NCBI GenBank assembly: GCA_905479805.1
Contig: CAJQNY010000107.1
Location: forward strand, 1-33,358
From: an uncultured Arenicella sp.
GTDB taxonomy: Bacteria; Pseudomonadota; Gammaproteobacteria; Arenicellales; Arenicellaceae
DNA length: 33,358 nucleotides
Direction of reading: 5' to 3'
Both the position numbers and the translations under genes were made by a program. Positions 1,416 to 26,481 of this stretch are shown here, piece by piece. The stretch's first letter is position 1. Each line of letters opens with the position of its first letter. The notes beneath the pieces were generated by a model. That model did no database searches and had not been told where the DNA came from. It saw only the letters and a list, made by a program, of their open reading frames with translations.

Positions 1416-2354
1416 ATGAGTATTTATATTATCCCGGCCTTATTCGCATTAATGATTAAGCTCGGAGTATTAACTCTATCTACAAAAGGAGTTTCCAAGT
1501 CGCCGTTATTTTTTACTATGGTATTATTTTTCGCCTGTCATAATGTCGCAGAAGTATTAGGCATACTTGAATTTTTCAATGGTGAGCGACTCACTCAGGT
1601 TTTGCGATGGTATTACCTAATGACCATCGGGGCTCTTGGAGTTATGGTTCTTTATGCGGCTGACATTAGTAACATTTCACGTAAATGGGGAGGTGCCAAC
1701 CTCAGAATTTTTAATGTATGCGTTATCACGTTAACCTCTGCTTTAGCAATATTAATAATGTTTACCAATGCCTTGGTTGCTGGTAGTGAGTCCTTGGGCT
1801 ATATCATGACTTCAGTGCGTGGGCCGGCTTACCTCCTATTTCCGCTGTTCGCAATCCTTTCTTTTTGTTTAGTGGTTTCGTTGTTGGTGTATGGTTACAA
1901 AAATGCTGAAAGCCACAGAGATGAAATTAGTAGTGCCTATACTTTATTAGCTTTAGCACCGGTTGTCATAGCGAGCTTTGTTTTGATGGGGTTAATGGTA
2001 TTTGGTGTCAGGATTAATGCGACCGCGGTTTTGCCGATAACGACAGCGTTGTTCTTAGTTATCATGCTTAAAACGGAGCGTCAACACAGGATAATTGATA
2101 TCCGTCGACACATTCCTTATTCATTGGAGCGTAAAACATCGGCGCAGATTATGGAGATCTTCTCTAAATACGCCAGTGATGAGGTTAATTATCGTGATGG
2201 ATTGGCCGAAATTGAAAAACTCTTGGTTTTACACAAGCATGATAAACATCGTGGAAATGTAAGTAGTACAGCAAGTTCAATGGAAATCCCTAGGTCGTCC
2301 TTGTATTCGATCTTTAGGCGTCTGGATATCGAGTTGAAAGAGTCAAAACAATAA
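1416..2354 (+). CDS. Seven-TM membrane protein with C-terminal Fis-type HTH (candidate one-component membrane regulator)
   Basis: About 312 residues. Seven hydrophobic segments are seen near residues 3-21, 31-50, 63-83, 97-120, 138-161, 174-198 and 201-219, followed by a charged cytoplasmic tail. In the tail, roughly residues 262-308 read as a Fis/HTH_8 unit: an EIEKLLVL helix, then GNVSSTASSMEIPRSSLYSI and FRRLDIEL, closely matching the pattern seen at the C-terminus of NtrC-class activators, but with no AAA+ domain. The start is the ATG at 1416, with AGGAG at 1404-1408; a TTG at 1413 is possible. The N-terminal part resembles the 7TM sensor modules found on histidine kinases, but no kinase follows. 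It is likely to sense a membrane or lipophilic ligand and bind DNA directly. The adjacent KAS III gene may make that ligand (inference). Confidence 0.65.
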   Translation: MSIYIIPALFALMIKLGVLTLSTKGVSKSPLFFTMVLFFACHNVAEVLGILEFFNGERLTQVLRWYYLMTIGALGVMVLYAADISNISRKWGGANLRIFNVCVITLTSALAILIMFTNALVAGSESLGYIMTSVRGPAYLLFPLFAILSFCLVVSLLVYGYKNAESHRDEISSAYTLLALAPVVIASFVLMGLMVFGVRINATAVLPITTALFLVIMLKTERQHRIIDIRRHIPYSLERKTSAQIMEIFSKYASDEVNYRDGLAEIEKLLVLHKHDKHRGNVSSTASSMEIPRSSLYSIFRRLDIELKESKQ

Positions 2355-2900
2355 GTATTGATTATGATCTCTTGTTTTGATTGAGCCGTCTTTGTTATGT
2401 GAAGGCGCGTTTGCGTGAGGAAAAAGTAGACTTAAATGCACTTTCAGGGTTGAGGAGTGCGTATTCTTGCTTCCAGGTGCTCTAGCCTCTGTAGTTTGAA
2501 AGCTTGGATATGTCTGATTCTTAAATCGTCATGTCTCCACGCCGTGTTTCATGATGCATGTTTATTGGGTTATGTCGATCATTATAGTCTTCGATTTAGT
2601 GATCATGATTTTTGCATTAATGGCTCGATACTATATGACTATTAAAATGCATCTTTATGTCATTGATGATTTATGGATTCGCGTTAAGCTATTTCTGTCT
2701 AATAGGCTGTGAGAACAGTGATGTTTATAGGTCTCATTACCACATTCACGTTCAATAGTGTGATTGGTAGAAGAGCGCTTTGGTTATTTCTTTAGTCGAT
2801 TAGATAAAATAAAAAATTCGTCCCGAACACCTTGAAACATAGCTCTAGTGTCTCGGAAGGACTTGACCACTAACGATTCATAGATACTGGTACATATAAG
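2355..2900. other. 546-bp intergenic region
   Basis: Between the membrane regulator and the acyl-CoA dehydrogenase. I see no strong terminator. The only coding candidate is the small membrane ORF at 2551-2712, listed separately; other short frames here have no ribosome binding site and unlikely composition. The last 130 bases are AT-rich and probably hold the promoter of the dehydrogenase gene, but no convincing -35/-10 pair can be singled out. Confidence 0.5.
2551..2712 (+). CDS. Possible small single-TM membrane protein
   Basis: A 53-codon frame beginning ATG ATG encodes a protein-like pattern: a hydrophobic segment at about residues 4-25 (with MSIIIVFDLVIMIFALM) followed by a basic, amphipathic tail ending in VKLFLSNRL. 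That is the usual design of bacterial small membrane proteins. Against it, no Shine-Dalgarno sequence precedes the ATGs and the frame could be open by chance in AT-rich DNA. No function can be assigned. Confidence 0.2.
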   Translation: MMHVYWVMSIIIVFDLVIMIFALMARYYMTIKMHLYVIDDLWIRVKLFLSNRL

Positions 2901-4049
2901 ATGCTATTCACTGAAGAACACCACGCCTTAGCTGAGACAACAGCAAAGGTCATCGCGAATGAAATAAACCCGTATTGTGATCAATGGGAAGAAGAGGGGA
3001 TATTTCCTGCTCATGAAGTGTTTAAGAAGCTTGGGGATCTAGGCCTATTGGGTATTGCTAAGCCAGAGACGTATGGCGGTCTTGGCTTAGACTATAGCTA
3101 TCAGATAGCGTTTGCAGAAGAGCTAGGAATGATACGCAGTGGAGGAGTCTCCATGGGAATTGGTGTGCAAACAGATATGTCGACTCCTGCATTGGCAAAG
3201 CATGGAAGTGATGCTTTGAGGGCTGAGTTTTTAGCTCCAGCAATTAGTGGCGATGCCGTTATGTCGATAGCAGTAAGTGAGCCAAGTGCCGGTTCCGATG
3301 TGGCGAGTATAAAGACCTCAGCGCGCAAGGATGGAGACGATTACATCATTAATGGCACCAAGATGTGGATCACAAATTCAACCCAGGCTGACGCTCTATG
3401 TGTCCTTGTTAATACCGGTGAGGGGCCAGTCCATAAGAATAAGTCCCTGGTAATCGTTCCGACTAATACGCCTGGCGTTTCATTTTCAAAACGACTGAAT
3501 AAGCTTGGGATGCGATCATCAGATACCGCGCAGGTGTTCTTCGATGATGTGCGAGTACCTCAGTCAAATAGAATAGGCGAGGAAGGTTTTGGGTTTATGT
3601 ACCAAATGGAACAGTTTCAAGAGGAAAGGCTCTTTGCGGCGGCAGCGGGTATTAAGGGCATGGAAATGAGTATCAAAGACACCATTGAATATACCCGTGA
3701 ACGTCAAGCTTTCGGTAAATCTATTCTGGATAATCAGGTTGTTCATTTCAGATTAGCTGAGCTTCAGACAGAAATCGAGGCTTTGCGAGCATTGACTTAC
3801 AATGCGACTGAGGAGTATTTGGCTGGTGTAGATGTCACAACTAAAGCATCCATGGCGAAGCTCAAGGCGGGACGTTTAGCACGAGAAGTTAACGATTCTT
3901 GCATTCAGTATTTTGGCGGCCAAGGCTACATGTGGGATAACCCCGTGGCTCGTTCTTATCGAGATTCACGCCTAACGTCAATTGGCGGTGGTGCTGACGA
4001 AATAATGTTAGAAATCATTTGCAAAAAAATGCGTATATCACCCAGTTAG
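2901..4049 (+). CDS. Acyl-CoA dehydrogenase (IVD/LCAD or citronellyl-CoA dehydrogenase-like)
   Basis: A full-length 382-residue flavin-dependent acyl-CoA dehydrogenase, which makes 2,3-enoyl-CoA and passes electrons to ETF. Family signatures are AVSEPSAGSD (residues 124-133), MWITNS (155-160), RQAFGK (268-273) and YFGGQGY (337-343). At the place where medium- and short-chain enzymes carry the catalytic Glu (YEGT-E), this protein has IGGGADE, so the base is absent there. Glu242 in QEERL is at the position used by isovaleryl-CoA and long-chain dehydrogenases, so a branched, terpenoid (AtuD-like) or long-chain substrate is likely. The ribosome binding site is weak. The MFS gene begins 184 bases later on the same strand. 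The subclass is inferred from the residue swap. Confidence 0.9.
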   Translation: MLFTEEHHALAETTAKVIANEINPYCDQWEEEGIFPAHEVFKKLGDLGLLGIAKPETYGGLGLDYSYQIAFAEELGMIRSGGVSMGIGVQTDMSTPALAKHGSDALRAEFLAPAISGDAVMSIAVSEPSAGSDVASIKTSARKDGDDYIINGTKMWITNSTQADALCVLVNTGEGPVHKNKSLVIVPTNTPGVSFSKRLNKLGMRSSDTAQVFFDDVRVPQSNRIGEEGFGFMYQMEQFQEERLFAAAAGIKGMEMSIKDTIEYTRERQAFGKSILDNQVVHFRLAELQTEIEALRALTYNATEEYLAGVDVTTKASMAKLKAGRLAREVNDSCIQYFGGQGYMWDNPVARSYRDSRLTSIGGGADEIMLEIICKKMRISPS

Positions 4050-6833: not shown

Positions 6834-9323
6834 ATGTCTAAGTTCCAAAAAATTGGTTTTAACCAATTAGGAGCAACTTTGCTGACAGTATCTGCACTTG
6901 CATTTCCGAGTATTTCGGCAGCGCAAGGTGGAGCACTAGAAGAAATTGTTGTTACCGCATCAAAACGCTCAACTACGCTGCAGGACATTCCTATTGCGGT
7001 GAGTGTGACTACTGCTGATACGATCGAAAAAGCCCAAATTTTGGACTTAAAAGATCTTCAAAGTGTCGTGCCATCACTCAGAATTAACCAATTGCAGAAC
7101 TCTACGAATACTAACTTTATTATTCGTGGTTTTGGTAATGGTGCAAACAATCCTGGTATTGAGCCATCAGTAGGTGTGTTCATTGACGGTGTTTACCGAT
7201 CTCGTTCTGCCTCATCAATCTCAGATTTACCAAACCTAGAGCGCGTGGAAGTCTTGCGTGGTCCACAAAGTACTCTTTTCGGTAAAAATGCATCAGCGGG
7301 TGTTATTAGTGTTGTAACACGTAAGCCTACTGGTGAATCAGCGGGTCGTGTATCGGCTACTATCGGTAACGAAGGTTACTTGGTATTGAAAGCACAAAAG
7401 GAAGGCGCGCTTTCTGAAAATGTCGCTTATGACGTCTATGCCAGCACCAATACTCGTGATGGTTACATTAAGAACGGTGTTACTGGTACAGACTTAAACG
7501 ATCGTGACCGTCAGGCAATCCGTGGTCAGCTTGTTATCACTCCAAGTGATACAACTGAAGTTCGTATCATCGCAGACTATGATCAAATAGATGAAGTCTG
7601 TTGTGCAGTCGGAAACTTTTTTCAATCTCCGCTTGAAGTCTTTGTGAATTCCCAGACTGGTGCTCGATTTATTCCAAATGACCCGTTTTCGGATACAGTG
7701 CTTTATGACACTGACCCAAAGAACGAAATTGAAAATGCGGGTATCTCAATGCAGATTGACAAGTCATATGATGGCTTTGATCTAACGTCAATTACGGCAT
7801 TCAGAACAACTGATTCTTTTTCGACTATTGATGCTGACTTCACGTCGGCTAATTACATCAGTAATCCTATCACGACTGAAATCGATACATTTACTCAAGA
7901 AATTCGATTAACGTCTAATGACGGCGACTCGGTTGATTGGATGGTCGGTGGTTATTTCTTCGATGAAAAAATTGCTTACGAAAATGACCTTCAATACGGG
8001 CCTGATTTCCGCCCATTTGTAGATGCATTAACATTAGCTTTAACGGGCTCACCAAACTTGCTAGCTGGTTTAGAGCAGTCTTTTGGGCTTCCAGTTTTCC
8101 AAAGTTTTTTTCCAGCGAACGGAGCTGTTACCGAAGAAGCTACGCTTGATAACCAAGCCGTTTCATTGTTTGGTACCGTGGATTGGCACCTAAGTGATCG
8201 GTTAACGGCGACGCTAGGCTTGAACTACACCAAGGATGAAAAAGATGCGACCTTAGAACAGGTTAATCGTGACTTGTTCTCAGGTTTGGATTTTGTAGCT
8301 ATTGGGGGTGGCTTAATCACTCAGAGCCTTATCGGCGCTGGTGTACCACCGCAAGTTGCAGTAGCTCAAGGTAATGCTTTAGCAACGAATCCTGCTTTCA
8401 ATCCTTTGTTGGGCTTTCAAGCTGTGCAGTTCCTTCCACCGCTACAAGATTATCCAAATCCAATTGAAGATGGTAAATCAGATGACGATGAGCTAACGTA
8501 TGCACTGCGTTTGGCGTTAGACGTTAATGATGATTTAAGTGTCTATGCTAGCCTTTCAACGGGTTTTAAAGCGACTTCCGTGAACTTGAGCCGTGACGCT
8601 CGACCGGTTGCTAGCGATCTTACTCGTCTGCGCGCATTAGGCATTGCTCAAAATAACCTTTTACCAGGTACGCGTTTTGCTAACCCAGAAAAGGCAACGG
8701 CTCTAGAATTAGGCTTGAAAGCCAAGTTTGAACGCGGTTCATTCAATCTAGCTATCTTTGATCAAGAGATTGAAGATTTCCAATCGAACGTTTTTAATGG
8801 AACTGGTTTTAATCTTGCGAACGCTGAGAAGCAATCAACCAAAGGCGTTGAATTTGATCTTCTTTATTACCCAACAGATGGTTTGAAAATTGCGTTTGCC
8901 GGTACTTTCCTTGATCCAACCTATGATACTTACACTGGTGCTTCTGGCCCGAATGGGACTGTGGTTGATCTGAGCGGTACAGAGCCAGCAGGCATTCATA
9001 AAACCAGCCTTTCATTGGGTATGACGTATAGTTTCACTATGGGCAATAACGAAGCTTATATTGGTGGTGATTATCAGTACGATGATAAAGTACCTACTAA
9101 TCAAGCAATTCCTGAATCGATCTCTGCTGAAGAAGTGAAGGTGCTTAATCTGAGCGCAGGTTTGAATACGCCTAATGGTCTTGGTTTTGCTCTTTGGGCT
9201 CGTAACGTAACTGATCATGAAACAGTGACTACGGCTTTCCCAACTGTAGGTGGAACCGGCGGAATATTTGGATATAGAAATGCTCCACGTATCTATGGGC
9301 TAACGGTATCTAAAGACTTCTAG
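6834..9323 (+). CDS. TonB-dependent outer membrane receptor
   Basis: An 829-residue outer-membrane gated channel that imports a bound ligand using TonB/ExbBD energy. The signal peptide ends near Ala30 (SISAA|Q). A TonB box EEIVVTASKR begins at about residue 36. The plug domain (about 48-165) includes RVEVLRGPQSTLFGKNASAG, and a 22-strand barrel fills the rest, ending in a terminal aromatic (VSKDF) as expected for BAM-dependent insertion. The length and plug wording resemble the large receptor family expanded in marine and sphingomonad bacteria for organic substrates rather than siderophores. Ligand unknown; the neighbours (acyl-CoA ligase, acyl-CoA dehydrogenase, MFS) hint at a hydrophobic acid or terpenoid. 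A strong ribosome binding site lies upstream and a strong terminator follows, so it is probably monocistronic. Confidence 0.95.
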   Translation: MSKFQKIGFNQLGATLLTVSALAFPSISAAQGGALEEIVVTASKRSTTLQDIPIAVSVTTADTIEKAQILDLKDLQSVVPSLRINQLQNSTNTNFIIRGFGNGANNPGIEPSVGVFIDGVYRSRSASSISDLPNLERVEVLRGPQSTLFGKNASAGVISVVTRKPTGESAGRVSATIGNEGYLVLKAQKEGALSENVAYDVYASTNTRDGYIKNGVTGTDLNDRDRQAIRGQLVITPSDTTEVRIIADYDQIDEVCCAVGNFFQSPLEVFVNSQTGARFIPNDPFSDTVLYDTDPKNEIENAGISMQIDKSYDGFDLTSITAFRTTDSFSTIDADFTSANYISNPITTEIDTFTQEIRLTSNDGDSVDWMVGGYFFDEKIAYENDLQYGPDFRPFVDALTLALTGSPNLLAGLEQSFGLPVFQSFFPANGAVTEEATLDNQAVSLFGTVDWHLSDRLTATLGLNYTKDEKDATLEQVNRDLFSGLDFVAIGGGLITQSLIGAGVPPQVAVAQGNALATNPAFNPLLGFQAVQFLPPLQDYPNPIEDGKSDDDELTYALRLALDVNDDLSVYASLSTGFKATSVNLSRDARPVASDLTRLRALGIAQNNLLPGTRFANPEKATALELGLKAKFERGSFNLAIFDQEIEDFQSNVFNGTGFNLANAEKQSTKGVEFDLLYYPTDGLKIAFAGTFLDPTYDTYTGASGPNGTVVDLSGTEPAGIHKTSLSLGMTYSFTMGNNEAYIGGDYQYDDKVPTNQAIPESISAEEVKVLNLSAGLNTPNGLGFALWARNVTDHETVTTAFPTVGGTGGIFGYRNAPRIYGLTVSKDF

Positions 9324-18099: not shown

Positions 18100-18582
18100 T
18101 TAAAAAATATGAGCTAAATAAATGTAGGCGTCTCTGAAATCGAAGATAAACGAGAAGAGAATAACGAACGTCATTACGCCGCTCCAGATAGTAAATGCTG
18201 AGCGCATATCGCCACTGGCCAGGAAGGGGTGCTTGGTGAGCAATTGGTATAAAGCCGGTGACCAACAAATGATATGGATGCAAGCGATAAAACCGGAGAG
18301 TACGATCAAACCAAGTTTTGGTGCGAGGCTTGTGATTATAAAGCCCACGACAAAGCCACCAACTACCCAGCGTGCGATAGGGTGATTCCGAACGAAGAAT
18401 AATCCGGCAAAAAAGGTCGCAGCCATAAAGGCGATCCACAGCTTCACCCAGGTTGGAGAAGCCGCCATTCCCTCAGAATCAAAGACTTCGAGGGCGCCGT
18501 GTCCTTTGGTGTATTCGTTGGCTGCATCGGCATCGCCCATAGAGACAGTTATAAGGATTATTAGGAATGCAATTATCTTCAT
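18100..18582 (-). CDS. Unknown membrane protein, signal/anchor plus about four TM segments
   Basis: A 160-residue protein I do not recognise. An N-terminal hydrophobic segment with possible cleavage (GDADA|AN) is followed by a short extracytoplasmic stretch and about four TM helices near residues 46-64, 69-88, 90-111 and 132-153. The reading frame is credible: GAAAGG lies about 8 bases before the ATG on the minus strand, and the gene exactly fills the space between the exporter stop and the divergent promoter of the amidohydrolase. It is divergently transcribed from that gene and convergent, with no spacer, with the RND exporter. A role beside the exporter or the DUF3604 block is only suggested by position. 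Confidence 0.75.
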   Translation of the reverse strand: MKIIAFLIILITVSMGDADAANEYTKGHGALEVFDSEGMAASPTWVKLWIAFMAATFFAGLFFVRNHPIARWVVGGFVVGFIITSLAPKLGLIVLSGFIACIHIICWSPALYQLLTKHPFLASGDMRSAFTIWSGVMTFVILFSFIFDFRDAYIYLAHIF

Positions 18583-20574: not shown

Positions 20575-22485
20575 ATGAAGCAGGTAGCACGTAATAGAGT
20601 GATCGCAGGTTGTTTGTCGTCTGGATTGGCGCTCGCTTCAATCTCGTTTAGTGCATTGGCCGCTGATAATCCCGACCGGCTACTTTGGGGGGATACTCAT
20701 GTGCATACGTCTTATTCTTTTGATGCCTTTTTAAACCAAAATCATTCAGCTGACCCTGACACAGCCTATCGCTGGGCAAAAGGTCAGCCGGTTATTCACC
20801 CATACAATCGTGCGCGAGTGCAACTTAGCGATCCTTTGGATTTTTTGGTGGTATCCGACCATGCTGAATTGATGGGCGTGATTCGCGCGATTGATAATGG
20901 CACGGCCGAATTAGAAGACGATAGCTTTTGGGCTGGAATCGAACGCCGCGTAAAAACATTTTTCTTGCAAGATGCAATAGAGAAGGAAGCGGGACGAAGT
21001 TTTTTTAGTAAATTGCTACCGGTTGCTGGCCAAAACCCCGGTGAGGATCCGGTTCAAGACACCAATAATGATATATCAAATAGAACTTTTGGAGACTCCA
21101 CGGTAACGGAGACCAAAGCATGGCACGAAATAGTAGACGCAGCGGAACGTCATAACGATCCTGGGAAGTTCACCAGCATAATGGGCTGGGAGTGGAGTTC
21201 AATCCCAACGGGGGCCAACCTTCACAGAGTAGTGATTACCCCAGACGATGGTATAAAAGCTAAGCAATTTTTACCTTACGGTTCAGATCAAAGCCAATAC
21301 CCAGAAGACCTTTGGAATTGGTTAGAGGAAACTACCGAAAAGACCGGAGCGCGCTTTATATCAATTCCTCACAACTCAAATATCTCTAAGGGGTATATGT
21401 TTGCCGAGACCAATTTGCGTGGAGAAGCAATCACAGCCGACTACGCTAAGCGTAGAATGGACTATGAGCCGATTGTTGAGATGACTCAAATTAAGGGTGA
21501 CTCGGAAACCCACCCCAGCTTATCACCCAATGATGAGTTCGCTGATTTTGAGACGTATAAGTTTTATATTCAACAGGAGTGGAGTGAATATAAACCGACT
21601 GAGGCTGACTATGTTCGGTCTGCCCTTAAGACTGGTTTGAACTTGCAAAACAAAATTGGTGTTAATCCATACAAGTTTGGCTTCATCGGGTCAACCGATG
21701 CACACACGGGTTTAAGCACGGCTGAAGAGGAGAACTTTTGGGGTAAGATGGCGAAAGACTCAACGCCTGAAACCAAGCGGACTACTGCTGAATTGGACAG
21801 TCAACAACCCAGCGGTTGGAATATGGCGGCTCAGGGCTTAGCGGCGGTTTGGGCCAATGATAATAACCGCGAAGAAATTTATTCGGCTTTTAAACGTAAA
21901 GAAACCTACGCAACAACCGGGCCAAGAATCAGTTTAAGAATGTTCGCTTCTTGGGGTTTTGACGCCGCGGATGCTCAAGCAAAAGATTTTGCAGATATTG
22001 GTTACGCCAAGGGCGTGCCTATGGGCGGCGATTTAATCGCTACTTCGGATGAGGCTGCTTCAGCTCCGATGTTGTTGCTGCGCGCAGTTAAAGACCCAAA
22101 GGGCGCGAATCTAGATCGAATACAGGTTGTAAAGGGCTGGGTCGATAGTTCAGGCGTTTCTCAAGAGAAAGTATTTAACGTCGCGTGGTCAGGGGAGCGC
22201 AATATCGACGCTCAAGGGCAGATATCTCCCTTAGAGAACACGGTTGATGTTAAGTCCGTCACTTATGATCGAAATCAGGGTTCCGCTGAACTCGCTGTCG
22301 TATGGCAAGACCCAGAATTTGACCTTTCACAGCGTTCGTTTTATTACACACGAGTATTACAAGTTCCTACACCGCGACATTCGCTCTATGACGCCGTTGC
22401 TCTAGATGAAGACGCTCCTGAAGAAGCGCCCGCGAGCATTCAAGAACGCGCTTACTCTTCACCCATTTGGTATAATCCTAGTTGA
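20575..22485 (+). CDS. Secreted DUF3604 protein, copy A (PHP-like putative metallo-hydrolase)
   Basis: A 636-residue protein with a signal peptide ending at SALA|AD (residue 29). The start is ATG 20575 with GAGAGAGG upstream; an in-frame ATG 33 bases earlier would bury the signal peptide. Metal-binding motifs of the PHP fold are clear: GDTHVHTSYSFDAF (His42, His44), VVSDHAEL (Asp95, His96), IPHNSN (His266) and GSTDAHTG (Asp375, His377). DUF3604 proteins are widespread in marine and oligotrophic proteobacteria, and to my knowledge no substrate has been established. The gene is 16 bases ahead of a clear paralogue and heads an operon with a PPIase and a metal permease. Periplasmic hydrolase of a phosphoester or similar bond is inferred from the fold only. 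Confidence 0.9.
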   Translation: MKQVARNRVIAGCLSSGLALASISFSALAADNPDRLLWGDTHVHTSYSFDAFLNQNHSADPDTAYRWAKGQPVIHPYNRARVQLSDPLDFLVVSDHAELMGVIRAIDNGTAELEDDSFWAGIERRVKTFFLQDAIEKEAGRSFFSKLLPVAGQNPGEDPVQDTNNDISNRTFGDSTVTETKAWHEIVDAAERHNDPGKFTSIMGWEWSSIPTGANLHRVVITPDDGIKAKQFLPYGSDQSQYPEDLWNWLEETTEKTGARFISIPHNSNISKGYMFAETNLRGEAITADYAKRRMDYEPIVEMTQIKGDSETHPSLSPNDEFADFETYKFYIQQEWSEYKPTEADYVRSALKTGLNLQNKIGVNPYKFGFIGSTDAHTGLSTAEEENFWGKMAKDSTPETKRTTAELDSQQPSGWNMAAQGLAAVWANDNNREEIYSAFKRKETYATTGPRISLRMFASWGFDAADAQAKDFADIGYAKGVPMGGDLIATSDEAASAPMLLLRAVKDPKGANLDRIQVVKGWVDSSGVSQEKVFNVAWSGERNIDAQGQISPLENTVDVKSVTYDRNQGSAELAVVWQDPEFDLSQRSFYYTRVLQVPTPRHSLYDAVALDEDAPEEAPASIQERAYSSPIWYNPS

Positions 22486-22501
22486 AAATAAGAGACCAAT
22501 A

Positions 22502-24451
22502 ATGAAAAAGCTAATCCTATCTATCTTACTTATTAGTGGTTTTAGTGTCGCCATTGCGCAAGACGTAGGAGCTGATGCTCGCAGTGTTGAGGTTTCTGAA
22601 ACTACTGAAGCCACAGAACTGACAGAAACTACTGAACCTACACAAGTTTTGTGGGGCGATACTCATTTGCATACCTCCTATTCATTTGACGCGTTTTTGA
22701 ATCAGAATCAATCAGCCGACCCAGACACAGCCTATCGTTGGGCCAAAGGTTTGCCGGTTATCCATCCGTATAGTAGAGCAAGGGTGCAGATAGAAACGCC
22801 ACTCGATTTTCTCGTAGTATCGGACCATGCTGAACTGATGGGTGTGATTCGTGCGGTTGCTAACGATACGGCGGATATTGGCAGTCTCGGATTTCTTAGT
22901 GATATAAAACGTTGGTTTACAACGCGCGCTATATTGAATGCCATTGAAAATGAAACTGGTAAGGGGATATTCGTAAAGATATTGCCCGTTACTGGAGAGC
23001 AACCGGGTAGCGACCCTGTTAAGGATCCGGCGAATGAGTTGGCGGTCGGCGCTTTTGGAGATACCGTCAAAACCGAAACGACAGCTTGGCATGAGATTGT
23101 TGATGCGGCCGAACGCCATAACCAACCCGGTAGATTCACCAGTTTGGTGGGTTGGGAATGGAGTTCAATCCCTACTGGCGCGAATCTGCATCGAGTAGTG
23201 GTGAGCCCAGATGGGGGCGAGAAGTCCAAGAAATATTTACCCTATGGTTCCGATCAAAGCCAATACCCGGAAGATCTGTGGTCTTGGTTTGAACAGACGA
23301 ATAAAGATACCGGAGCCCGGTTTCTTTCGATTCCACATAATTCAAATATTTCCAAGGGGTATATGTTTGCAGATACCACGCTAAAAGGCGAAAGCATTAC
23401 TGCGGCTTATGCGAAACAGAGAATGAAGTGGGAGCCTATTACAGAGATAACTCAAATTAAGGGCGACTCAGAGACCCACCCAAGTTTATCGCCCGATGAT
23501 GAGTTTGCTGGCTTCGAGAATTATCCGTTTTACATTCAACAAACTTGGGAAGAATACTTGCCGAAAAAGGGTGACTTTGTTCGCTCAGCACTTCGCCGGG
23601 GATTGGAAATAGAGCAAAATGTTGGCGCCAACCCATACAAATTTGGTGTGATTGGTTCAACTGATTCTCATACTGGAATAGCGTCGGCCGAAGAGAATAA
23701 TTTTTGGGGAAAGATGGCTAAGGATTCAACCCCAGAAACAAAGTTAGACGGCCTAGTAAGAGATGGTGGAGATAGCGCCAATGGTTGGCATAGGGCCGCA
23801 CAGGGTCTAGCCGCGGTTTGGGCAAAAGAGAATACCCGCGAGGAGATCTTTGCCGCATTCCAACGCAAAGAGACTTATGCGACGACGGGCCCTCGAATGA
23901 AGGTGCGGTTTTTTGCTGGCTGGAATTTCGTTGAAGAAGATCTCCAAGCCAGAGACTTTGTTGAACGAGCCTATCAAAAAGGCGTCCCGATGGGAGGCGA
24001 CCTGATAGCGCCACAACAAGCAGAGAATGGACCTCAGTTTCTAATTAGAGTCACTAAGGATCCGCTTGAAGCAAATCTTGATCGGGTCCAGATGATCAAG
24101 GGCTGGGTAGATGCCGCCGGAAAAAGTCAAGAGAAAATATTTAATGTGGCATGGTCTGGTGAACGTGAACTCTCCGCCGATGGAGCTTTACCCGCCGTTG
24201 GTAATACGGTTGACGCGGGTGTGCCCACCTATAATAACTCGATTGGCAGTGGCGAACTGTCAGTGATGTGGGCCGATCCGGAGTTTGATGCATCTCAGCG
24301 CGCTTTTTATTACGTAAGAGCTTTGCAAATTCCTACCCCTAGGCATTCTCTTTACGATGCGGTCGCATTGCAACAAGAGGCGACTGATGTGGCCCCTGCG
24401 GTTATTCAAGAGCGAGCTTATACATCTCCCATTTGGTATGCGCCACAATAA
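22502..24451 (+). CDS. Secreted DUF3604 protein, copy B (PHP-like, with Thr/Glu-rich tether)
   Basis: A 649-residue tandem paralogue of the preceding protein, with long identical stretches such as HTSYSFDAFLNQN. The signal peptide ends at AIA|QD (residue 19). It is followed by a Thr/Glu-rich linker (residues 28-48, with TEATEL and TETTEPT) that copy A lacks. The metal motifs are kept: GDTHLHTSYS (His55, His57), SDHAEL, IPHNSN and GSTDSHTG. In the last motif Ser replaces Ala. The start is ATG 22502; in-frame ATGs further upstream lie inside copy A. The linker suggests a flexible tether between the signal region and the enzyme domain. The divergence is spread over the protein, so this is an old duplication with probable division of function. 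Confidence 0.9.
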   Translation: MKKLILSILLISGFSVAIAQDVGADARSVEVSETTEATELTETTEPTQVLWGDTHLHTSYSFDAFLNQNQSADPDTAYRWAKGLPVIHPYSRARVQIETPLDFLVVSDHAELMGVIRAVANDTADIGSLGFLSDIKRWFTTRAILNAIENETGKGIFVKILPVTGEQPGSDPVKDPANELAVGAFGDTVKTETTAWHEIVDAAERHNQPGRFTSLVGWEWSSIPTGANLHRVVVSPDGGEKSKKYLPYGSDQSQYPEDLWSWFEQTNKDTGARFLSIPHNSNISKGYMFADTTLKGESITAAYAKQRMKWEPITEITQIKGDSETHPSLSPDDEFAGFENYPFYIQQTWEEYLPKKGDFVRSALRRGLEIEQNVGANPYKFGVIGSTDSHTGIASAEENNFWGKMAKDSTPETKLDGLVRDGGDSANGWHRAAQGLAAVWAKENTREEIFAAFQRKETYATTGPRMKVRFFAGWNFVEEDLQARDFVERAYQKGVPMGGDLIAPQQAENGPQFLIRVTKDPLEANLDRVQMIKGWVDAAGKSQEKIFNVAWSGERELSADGALPAVGNTVDAGVPTYNNSIGSGELSVMWADPEFDASQRAFYYVRALQIPTPRHSLYDAVALQQEATDVAPAVIQERAYTSPIWYAPQ

Positions 24452-24482
24452 TTAGAACCGTTTTTGCTGCGTTGAGGTAGTT

Positions 24483-25382
24483 ATGTCTTTCTTCAAAGAA
24501 CCCTTGGTTCAATTTGTTGTGCTAGGTCTGGCGTTGTATGTTTTTATCAATATACTGGCACCCGATAACCTTGTGCAAAACGATACCAATACCATTCAGG
24601 TAAATGATGATCGCTTGGTAGAGTACTTGCAGTTTCAACGCAAGAGCTTTGAGCCTGCTAAGGCATTGCAGATGTTAAATAAGATGCCCGCCGGTGAGCG
24701 TGATAGGTTGATAGATAATTATGTTAGAGACGAAGCGCTCTATCGCGAAGCACTGTCGTATGGCCTTGACGATAACGATGAAATTATCCGTAGACGTCTA
24801 ATTCAAAAAATGGAGTACATCGCGCAAGGCTTTTACGACAATGTTCCCGCGCTTGAAGAAGCGGATTTACGCGCACATTTCGATAAAAACATTGATCAGT
24901 ACAAGATTGACCCAAGCATCACATTTACTCACGTGTTTTTTCCGGCTGAGAATGATGATCAGCAAGTGGTGTTACGTCAGGCTGAACAGGAGTTGAGTCA
25001 ATTGAATAGAAAAAAGGTCGATTTTTCTGAGGCAGGTAAGTATGGAAAACGATTTTTGTATAATCTGAATTATGTGGAACGGACACCTGCTTTTGTCAGC
25101 AGTCATTTTGGCCAAGCTTTTTCACAGAATATTTTCACGTTAAAAGACCTGGCTCAATGGCAGGGTCCTATCAGATCTGAATACGGTTATCATTTGGTAA
25201 ACATTAAGAGTACTAGTCCTGCGCGAACGCCCGATCTAGAGGAAGTGGCTGCGAAGGTTTTGGCTGATACGCAAAGAGAACAACATCGAGATCTGAAATC
25301 GGCCGCCATAGATAAAATCGTCGAACGGTATCAGCGTGTCTCCCAGCAAGAGAAACATATATCTGCACCAGGCTCTGAGTAA
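24483..25382 (+). CDS. Membrane-anchored parvulin-type peptidyl-prolyl isomerase
   Basis: A 299-residue protein with a single N-terminal TM anchor (about 8-27), a helical SurA/PpiD-like segment (about 40-135) and a parvulin domain (about 140-247) marked by FTHVFFP, FSEAGKYG and WQGPIRSEYGYHLVNI. The C-terminal helical tail is hydrophilic. Such proteins face the periplasm and assist folding of exported proteins. The gene has a clean GAGG site and lies 31 bases after the second DUF3604 gene and 7 bases before the HupE/UreJ-like gene, so it is cotranscribed. A dedicated folding helper for the DUF3604 enzymes or the permease is the simplest reading (inference). Confidence 0.87.
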   Translation: MSFFKEPLVQFVVLGLALYVFINILAPDNLVQNDTNTIQVNDDRLVEYLQFQRKSFEPAKALQMLNKMPAGERDRLIDNYVRDEALYREALSYGLDDNDEIIRRRLIQKMEYIAQGFYDNVPALEEADLRAHFDKNIDQYKIDPSITFTHVFFPAENDDQQVVLRQAEQELSQLNRKKVDFSEAGKYGKRFLYNLNYVERTPAFVSSHFGQAFSQNIFTLKDLAQWQGPIRSEYGYHLVNIKSTSPARTPDLEEVAAKVLADTQREQHRDLKSAAIDKIVERYQRVSQQEKHISAPGSE

Positions 25383-25389
25383 CCTGAGG

Positions 25390-26481
25390 ATGAAGCTCCT
25401 CAACGTTGGCCTAATCGTGATGCTCTATCTCTTTAGCTTAGCGGTGCACGCGCATGAAGGTCGCCCAGTATTTGTGGAATTGAATATTACCGATACTCTA
25501 CAGATCGAGATGCAGTGGAAGGTGCCACCTGTCATGGCGCAAGGCGAAGAGCCGAAAATCACCCTGCATGCCAATTCATGTGTTCATGCCTCAAACAGCC
25601 AGAAAACCCAACAGGCGTTGACGGGCAGGCAGTTGTTTCAATGTGATCCCCGGCCCACCGAGTTGGCGGTGGTTATTGACTATCCAGGTGCGAACCCAGC
25701 ATTGTCGTCATTGGTGTTGGTAAGAGAGTCCGGTGTATTGCTGCGACAAATATTTTCCGGGCCGCAGGAAGGCACGGTTGATGTTCTCAAGACCACGGGA
25801 ACTATTGACTTGGCCTCGCAGTACATTCGCGGGGGTGTTAAACACATTCTTGCAGGTTGGGATCATTTATTGTTTGTGCTGTGTCTATTGCTATTGTCTC
25901 GGTCATTGAAGGGCGTTCTGATCACCGTAAGTGGTTTTACCATCGGGCACAGTATTACCTTGGCACTCTCAGTGTTGGGCGTGGTTTGGGTTCCCATCGT
26001 TTTTATAGAGATGTTGATTGCTCTAAGTATTGTCGTGCTAGCCGCAGAGCTGCTAATGGGCTTGAGAGCAAACACAGATTTAGGCGAGGCTTGGGATAGT
26101 GCGGTTGCATCCGGAGAAAAAAATAGAGTTATACAAAGCACTGCAAACACGCTCGCAGATGCATCCAAAGTATCATTTAGCTGGCGTTACCCAGCGTTAG
26201 TCGCGGCTGGCTTTGGCTTATTGCATGGTTTTGGTTTTGCGAGTGTCTTAGGGGAGCTAGGCTTACCGGATACACAACGTGTACTAGCGCTGCTATTTTT
26301 TAATTTGGGAATTGAGCTAGGGCAAATTGCCTTTATTCTAATGGCTATGTGTTTGGCGCTGCTATTGATCAAGATAGATATAGTCCGTAATAATCAGCGT
26401 CACATTCTGCATTTAGTTATCTACTCAATCGGCTTGGTAGCAAGTTATTGGTTGTTTGAGCGGCTGAGCTTATTGCTCTAA
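25390..26481 (+). CDS. HupE/UreJ-family membrane protein (putative Ni/Co-type metal permease)
   Basis: A 363-residue protein with a signal peptide ending at VHA|HEG, an extracytoplasmic domain (about 22-140, Cys64 and Cys85 possibly bridged) and a C-terminal membrane domain of six to seven helices. The family metal motif HxxxGxDH is present as HILAGWDH (His152, Asp158, His159), followed by GHSIT (His187) and LLHGFGFA (His279). HupE and UreJ proteins carry nickel (or cobalt) for hydrogenase and urease; no hydrogenase or urease is in this window. ATG 25390 is 7 bases after the PPIase stop, with GAGG directly adjacent, so coupling is likely; a GTG at 25336 lacks the signal peptide at its start. 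It may supply metal to the DUF3604 proteins (inference). Confidence 0.88.
   Translation: MKLLNVGLIVMLYLFSLAVHAHEGRPVFVELNITDTLQIEMQWKVPPVMAQGEEPKITLHANSCVHASNSQKTQQALTGRQLFQCDPRPTELAVVIDYPGANPALSSLVLVRESGVLLRQIFSGPQEGTVDVLKTTGTIDLASQYIRGGVKHILAGWDHLLFVLCLLLLSRSLKGVLITVSGFTIGHSITLALSVLGVVWVPIVFIEMLIALSIVVLAAELLMGLRANTDLGEAWDSAVASGEKNRVIQSTANTLADASKVSFSWRYPALVAAGFGLLHGFGFASVLGELGLPDTQRVLALLFFNLGIELGQIAFILMAMCLALLLIKIDIVRNNQRHILHLVIYSIGLVASYWLFERLSLLL

Follow-up and report, generated by a model that had tools for sequence, protein, structure and literature searches.

Here, we describe a four-gene operon on a contig of an uncultured Arenicella sp. (CAJQNY010000107.1, C107; the entire contig of 33,358 nucleotides was studied and is called the window below), in which two genes for DUF3604 proteins are followed by genes for a membrane-anchored parvulin and a HupE_UreJ_2 permease. 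The association of DUF3604 with the parvulin and HupE is far above chance across genomes. We give about an even chance to the reading that the operon encodes two secreted metallohydrolases of the PHP fold together with a helper pair devoted to DUF3604, by which the Sec-exported apo-enzyme would be folded and its metal site loaded. The four genes stand in series on the plus strand with intergenic gaps of 16, 31 and 7 bases; open reading frame coordinates and Pfam matches confirm this arrangement, which an original prediction made from the letters of the window had described. That prediction had also linked DUF3604 to the parvulin and HupE, and the association, once counted, proved strong, conserved and specific to the enzyme.

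The counts come from two samples, 185 genomes taken to be Gammaproteobacteria and 299 taken to be Pseudomonadota from the names of relatives; some genomes are common to both samples (for example G000 and G012), and some may be conspecific with the named GTDB loci considered below. Among the Gammaproteobacteria, DUF3604 exceeds its cut-off in 19 genomes and HupE_UreJ_2 in 51, with both present in 14 (Fisher 1.3e-5). In 10 of these 14 (including a remnant in G012), matches to the two families lie no more than 5 kb apart, against an expectation of about 0.23, itself a rough upper bound. DUF3604 exceeds the cut-off in 20 of the 299 Pseudomonadota genomes, of which 15, the window's own included, hold an intact DUF3604-parvulin-HupE cluster and two more hold remnants. 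G337 has kept parvulin and HupE beside a stop-containing DUF3604 remnant, and in G012 a single open frame (L220:5937-6923) joins the start of DUF3604 to the end of HupE_UreJ_2, as a deletion across a DUF3604-parvulin-HupE operon would leave. G297 and G417 have DUF3604 alone, the match in G417 being weak, and G436 has two lone DUF3604 genes, one of which is 41 kb away from a parvulin-HupE pair. Besides the order seen in the window, the pair can precede DUF3604 (L263), converge with it (L266) or stand between a DUF3604 fragment and a further DUF3604 gene (L259), and this variation makes the linkage more than inherited synteny.

The window parvulin scores 50.9 bits with Rotamase_2 (cut-off 27). 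An alignment of 22 linked parvulins has H150 in at least 90% of rows and H237 in 22/22; we take these two to be the catalytic histidines. A profile built from the same 22 proteins finds this parvulin type at E ≤ 1e-20 in 17 of the 299 Pseudomonadota genomes, representing 15 of 154 genera. It was found in 17/20 genomes with DUF3604 over the cut-off and in 0/279 without (Fisher 5e-25), and all 20 parvulin genes in this sample adjoin a HupE_UreJ_2 gene. The parvulin and this clade of HupE_UreJ_2 occur together in our samples, and among the 299 genomes the parvulin was found only where DUF3604 is present, either adjacent or at another place in the genome. With the threshold relaxed to E ≤ 1e-5, other parvulins of the host genome (L008, L010 and L011) are matched as well, so at that level the argument is carried by the neighbourhood and not by the label alone.

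Physical linkage is only one form of the association. Around DUF3604, 80 named GTDB loci divide into 21 with the three genes in the window's order, 4 with parvulin but lacking HupE (L118 among them is truncated by the contig end), 43 with neither partner and 12 that end too near the gene to judge; the window's eight best-scoring relatives all have the complete set in that order. Of cultured hosts, Pseudoteredinibacter isoporae and Marinobacter sp. F4216 have loci with the cluster, and in Haliea alexandrii the parvulin-HupE pair is not linked to DUF3604. For the 43 genomes in which the sampled DUF3604 gene has neither partner beside it, a profile search (E ≤ 1e-10) detects a parvulin elsewhere in 41, with best E-values per genome from 3.7e-111 to 2.9e-32. 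One parvulin locus was examined for each of 40 of these 41 genomes (G480 left out): 24 contain parvulin and HupE without a nearby DUF3604, 11 all three genes, 1 DUF3604 and parvulin, and 4 parvulin without HupE, which places the parvulin-HupE pair in 35/40 loci. The pair thus keeps company with DUF3604 also in the absence of linkage, and several DUF3604 enzymes may share one pair. From this distribution, the pair looks like a dedicated helper that serves DUF3604 also in trans.

The host genome (2.88 Mb in 280 contigs, 78% complete) has five DUF3604 genes, three of which lie outside the operon without parvulin or HupE, and the operon's HupE_UreJ_2 gene is the only one found in the recovered sequence. 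The fifth DUF3604 copy (L014:8094-10136) lies amid a likely catabolic cluster of thiolase, acyl-CoA dehydrogenase and short-chain dehydrogenase/reductase genes, judged by eye. In a congeneric genome (G143; 99% complete, 4.2 Mb) neither DUF3604 nor HupE_UreJ_2 was found, so the module was gained or lost inside the genus.

Both DUF3604 proteins are full-length members of Pfam family PF12228, with scores of 777.2 and 780.8 bits (cut-off 20.4) over profile positions 3-591 and 2-591 of 591, and they are 64% identical to each other. A sequence search of the PDB with DUF3604 returned no solved relative and nothing useful. The structure of protein 2 was predicted from 65 homologues with a mean predicted local distance difference test score (pLDDT) of 94.9, and a fold search with this model gave E ≤ 0.001 only for the PHP-like metal-dependent phosphoesterase 3e38, in both of its chains (E 1.7e-6 and 2.5e-6; probability 1.00). 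Two further PHP proteins, 2anu and 7ug9, stand at ranks 8 and 12 (E 0.006 and 0.009; probability 0.97), amid unrelated beta domains. TM-scores to 3e38 are low (0.27 and 0.44), probably because of an extra beta domain and insertions. Eight residues (H19, H21, D27, H73, E183, H194, H243 and D352 in model numbering) are identical in 65/65 aligned DUF3604 rows and a ninth, H354, in 64/65, the remaining row having an X. The nine were assigned as ligands by their order and their placement at strand ends in the predicted model, following what we take to be the canonical PHP ligand order. Nine residues hold the metals of PHP enzymes (PMC5636811, PMC5460133; these and the papers cited below are quoted from the accessible part of their text), and the nine His, Asp and Glu residues of the DUF3604 model fit such a site. 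By its confident model and the nine conserved residues, DUF3604 is placed in the PHP metallohydrolase fold. The PHP-type metal enzyme of the original prediction is thereby supported: the fold search with the predicted structure gave PHP structures as the best matches, and the metal motifs it had named are present and form part of the nine-residue set conserved across the 65 homologues.

A simple motif test found a Tat-like signal in only 1 of 107 DUF3604 proteins and a lipobox-like motif in 12. Because 106/107 are without a Tat-like signal, most DUF3604 proteins are probably exported unfolded via Sec. Two characterised groups of enzymes suggest what they might do there. The secreted PHP diesterases Sb-PDE and No-PDE hold zinc, and their sole homologue with known structure is 3E38 (PMC5460133, PMC11656708); they share with DUF3604 a Sec-type signal, a PHP domain, metal dependence and 3E38 as nearest solved fold. 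They differ in length (441 aa) and family (PF02811 rather than PF12228), and the accessible text of both papers makes no mention of a link to a parvulin or permease. In the carbamate hydrolases CehA and McbA, histidines matter for activity, in McbA those of the PHP-like domain (PMC8292978). Their profile (NF038032) gives a weak match to 50/65 DUF3604 proteins at E ≤ 1 (best 5.3e-7), whereas window protein 2 reaches 12.3 bits against a curated family cut-off of 80, and neither window protein has an NCBIfam match at E ≤ 0.001. The likeness to both groups makes a periplasmic hydrolase of phospho(di)esters or carbamates the best guess, and comparison with other secreted PHP enzymes points to hydrolysis of phospho(di)ester or carbamate/ester bonds as the most likely chemistry. 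Distant DUF3604-like proteins of 756 and 778 aa also occur at L217 and L218, divergently paired with parvulin-HupE genes.

The permease scores 146.5 bits with PF13795 (cut-off 24.5), has the motifs HX5DH, GFTxxHS and HGFGF, and is modelled as an N-terminal beta-sandwich followed by membrane helices (pLDDT 87.8). With cleavage placed by eye, it probably matures to an N-terminal His. HX5DH, FTxxH and HGxGxA are conserved in 22/22 aligned permease rows. The permease profile matched no PDB sequence at E ≤ 10 and the model gave no convincing fold match, returning weak Ig-like and other matches, in sets that possibly exclude 9GCE, the PDB entry for RbAng-1a. A rapidly built tree covered 121 HupE_UreJ_2 proteins; because their loci had in part been picked for DUF3604, its frequencies are not natural. 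On it, 46 of 49 permeases linked to DUF3604 or parvulin fall in one supported set of 49 rows, whose other three rows are unlinked. The partner label changes 5 times on this tree, compared with 38.4 times when shuffled. Separate clades of 16 rows each accompany a TPR protein, in 11 rows with DUF4331 (by profile), and 5'-nucleotidase-like phosphatases. The former includes a cluster built along similar lines and so far unstudied, in which HupE_UreJ_2 comes after a TPR protein and a DUF4331 protein (L177, L186, L196, L205 and L211); a literature search for DUF4331 returned no paper. In the latter class (L171, L175, L184, L189 and 12 more), HX5DH is found in 0/16 and a variant with one extra residue between His and DH in 15/16.

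Relatives of the permease have been described as anglerases. The N-terminal domain of Ang-1 and Ang-2 binds Cu, with a Kd of 74 nM for RbAng-1a, which also binds Ni at 220 nM, and these proteins are proposed to capture and import metal; the most frequent neighbours of Ang-1 are of unknown function, and the accessible main text mentions neither parvulin nor DUF3604 (PMC12537917). The window permease resembles them in its PF13795 domain, in its signal peptide and, apparently, in a beta-sandwich with a putatively chelating N-terminus ahead of the permease part. Among the 49 DUF3604-linked permeases, in contrast, the first mature residue is His in 32, Asp in 16 and unplaced in 1, by a heuristic with three odd placements, of which L216 is clearly wrong. 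The median distance from the N-terminus to HX5DH is 131 residues, compared with 165 in the TPR/DUF4331 class. Given the Asp starts and the shorter distance, the DUF3604-linked permease appears to be a sister type of the anglerases and is not clearly Ang-1.

In the mechanism that we propose, DUF3604 would pass the inner membrane unfolded via Sec, the membrane-anchored parvulin would hold or isomerise it at the periplasmic face, and the permease would supply divalent metal to its nine-ligand site, either by export or by capture in its periplasmic domain and subsequent hand-over. A single parvulin-permease pair could serve several DUF3604 enzymes per cell. The parvulin is most simply a folding helper. 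For loading DUF3604, export or periplasmic capture with hand-over fits better than uptake, given that most of these enzymes are probably exported via Sec and metal brought into the cytoplasm would not fill their sites. A pair tied to one exported family, a parvulin that would fold it and an import route that would not load it together lead us to prefer a module for maturation on the periplasmic side. A wider version, for which we would put the chance somewhat below even, is a trans-acting exo-metalation module in which the parvulin and an anglerase-type permease load one exported PHP family; more generally, each HupE_UreJ_2 clade may be paired with a secreted protein of its own, in some cases together with a partner akin to a chaperone (the parvulin for DUF3604, a TPR protein for DUF4331, none seen for the 5'-nucleotidase-like phosphatases).

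The strongest rival, live although rather unlikely, is metal scavenging, in which DUF3604 would break a periplasmic metal chelate or metal-binding compound, the permease would import the freed metal and the parvulin would merely fold the enzyme. This agrees with the capture and uptake proposed by the anglerase authors (PMC12537917) and with a TonB receptor in the window at 6834-9323; a TonB-receptor-like cluster, judged by eye, lies in 5/35 loci with the parvulin and in 3/43 without. However, recurrent neighbour clusters mostly follow lineage, and the helper pair tracks one enzyme family even where the enzyme is elsewhere in the genome. It is also possible, but unlikely, that the permease carries the substrate or product of DUF3604 and no metal, its HX5DH-type residues being structural or proton-coupling. 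Neither sequence nor fold searches turned up a solved relative for the permease, so the idea of a metal role draws on what the family is called and on data for the N-terminal domain of relatives. That domain does bind Cu and Ni (PMC12537917), the three permease motifs are invariant in the aligned rows, and other clades of the family adjoin other metal-type secreted proteins, such as calcineurin-like 5'-nucleotidases, all of which speak for metal.

Import of Ni or Co to the cytoplasm through the permease as the enzyme's metal supply, the reading first predicted, is in our view improbable, even though HupE/UreJ domains are termed known nickel permeases (PMC12537917). Since most DUF3604 proteins are without a Tat-like signal, they would cross the membrane in a metal-free state, and the apparent start of 16/49 linked permeases, by the same heuristic, is Asp and not His. 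The absence of a nearby urease or hydrogenase, which had been part of that argument, extends to the recovered genome: searches for urease alpha and the NiFe-hydrogenase large subunit found neither in the recovered sequence (78% complete), which likewise speaks against import of Ni or Co. Supply of metal to the enzyme is thus kept in the periplasmic maturation reading, while uptake as its route is weak. Chance or common inheritance of neighbours with no functional link can be considered highly improbable. Porticoccaceae loci do have much synteny in common, but the parvulin count (Fisher 5e-25) spans 154 genera, 15 of them with the parvulin, gene order varies and co-occurrence persists when the genes are unlinked.

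Several observations weigh against a dedicated maturation pair. No parvulin was detectable in two of the genomes with a lone DUF3604 gene (G486 and G495, both Luminiphilus), nor in 3/20 DUF3604 genomes among the Pseudomonadota (G297 and G417, plus G012 with its remnant). In most genomes at most eight first-look parvulin candidates were scored, with a profile from linked parvulins only, so the absence of the parvulin elsewhere is bounded by that search. HupE is missing from 4/40 parvulin loci, one of which lies at a contig end, and the divergent parvulin copies at L217 and L218 have apparently lost the catalytic histidines, judged by eye. Uptake is what the authors of PMC12537917 propose for this permease family, and secreted PHP diesterases, whether taken from the native host or made by recombinant expression, contained Zn (PMC5460133, PMC11656708); a dedicated loader is thus not a general requirement.

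The proposed division of labour can be compared with a system that contains PrsA, which we take to be a parvulin. In Bacillus subtilis, the TerC proteins MeeF and MeeY function in Mn export, are required to metalate Sec-exported enzymes and co-precipitate with SecDF and PrsA (PMC10550928). As far as the accessible text goes, the likeness lies in a polytopic membrane metal transporter that works with secretion machinery and a foldase in metalating Sec-exported enzymes. TerC belongs to another family (PF03741) and serves several Mn exoenzymes, whereas the window pair tracks DUF3604. To our knowledge, TerC has no operon devoted to one enzyme family. The resemblance to TerC and PrsA concerns a possible mode of action, not family membership.

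Table 1 Features of the DUF3604 operon in the window
Feature	Position	Strand	Basis and remarks
DUF3604 protein 1 (636 aa)	20575..22485	+	Pfam; Sec-type signal peptide by eye; PHP-type ligands H42 H44 D50 H96 E206 H217 H266 D375 H377
DUF3604 protein 2 (649 aa)	22502..24451	+	Pfam; model from residue 37 onward, pLDDT 94.9; closest solved fold 3e38
Membrane-anchored parvulin (299 aa)	24483..25382	+	Rotamase_2; EPLxxF anchor; conserved H150 and H237
HupE_UreJ_2 permease	25390..26481	+	Pfam; short N-terminal beta-sandwich domain; HX5DH and GFTxxHS; clade tracking DUF3604 and parvulin
Codon for probable mature N-terminal His (between VHA and HEGRP)	25453..25455	+	Cleavage site by eye, no signal-peptide program

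The genes flanking the operon had been suggested to act on the same compound, an old yellow enzyme (OYE) downstream and an amidohydrolase upstream, but neither neighbour is conserved across loci. Among the loci examined, the OYE profile matched only the window's genes, L184 (without DUF3604) and L323, and no other DUF3604-parvulin locus; at L323 the OYE-like gene (1935-3374; E 2.3e-46) comes directly behind a parvulin-HupE pair that is unlinked, and OYE also stands behind the pair in the window. Outside the window, an amidohydrolase of the window type accompanies a DUF3604-parvulin cluster only at L120, at a distance of about 7 kb and on the opposite strand; it also occurs near lone or contig-cut DUF3604 genes (L083, L088, L089, L106 and L131). 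Nor did a common pathway emerge from clustering 969 neighbour proteins (35 loci with the pair and 43 without), which mainly brought out synteny within lineages and widespread enzymes; the operon of Robiginitomaculum (L110) is of mixed content. Elsewhere in the window, a gene at 18100-18582 on the minus strand, convergent to an MMPL gene, encodes a probable membrane protein of 160 aa with no match in Pfam or NCBIfam.

In a literature search that left subscription journals mostly outside, DUF3604 came up in a single passing mention, a table entry on a Chlamydia transposon mutant, and among the matches listed there was no report of a three-gene DUF3604-parvulin-HupE unit and nothing relevant on HupE together with a prolyl isomerase or metallohydrolase. 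How exported metalloenzymes obtain the correct metal has been called 'less clear' (PMC10550928). The module described here is compact and genetically separable, with an enzyme, a folding helper and a presumed metal handler tied together by close co-occurrence, so that the metal content of the enzyme can be compared in the presence and absence of each helper. It offers a first way into the function of DUF3604 and a fresh context for settling the role of anglerase permeases.

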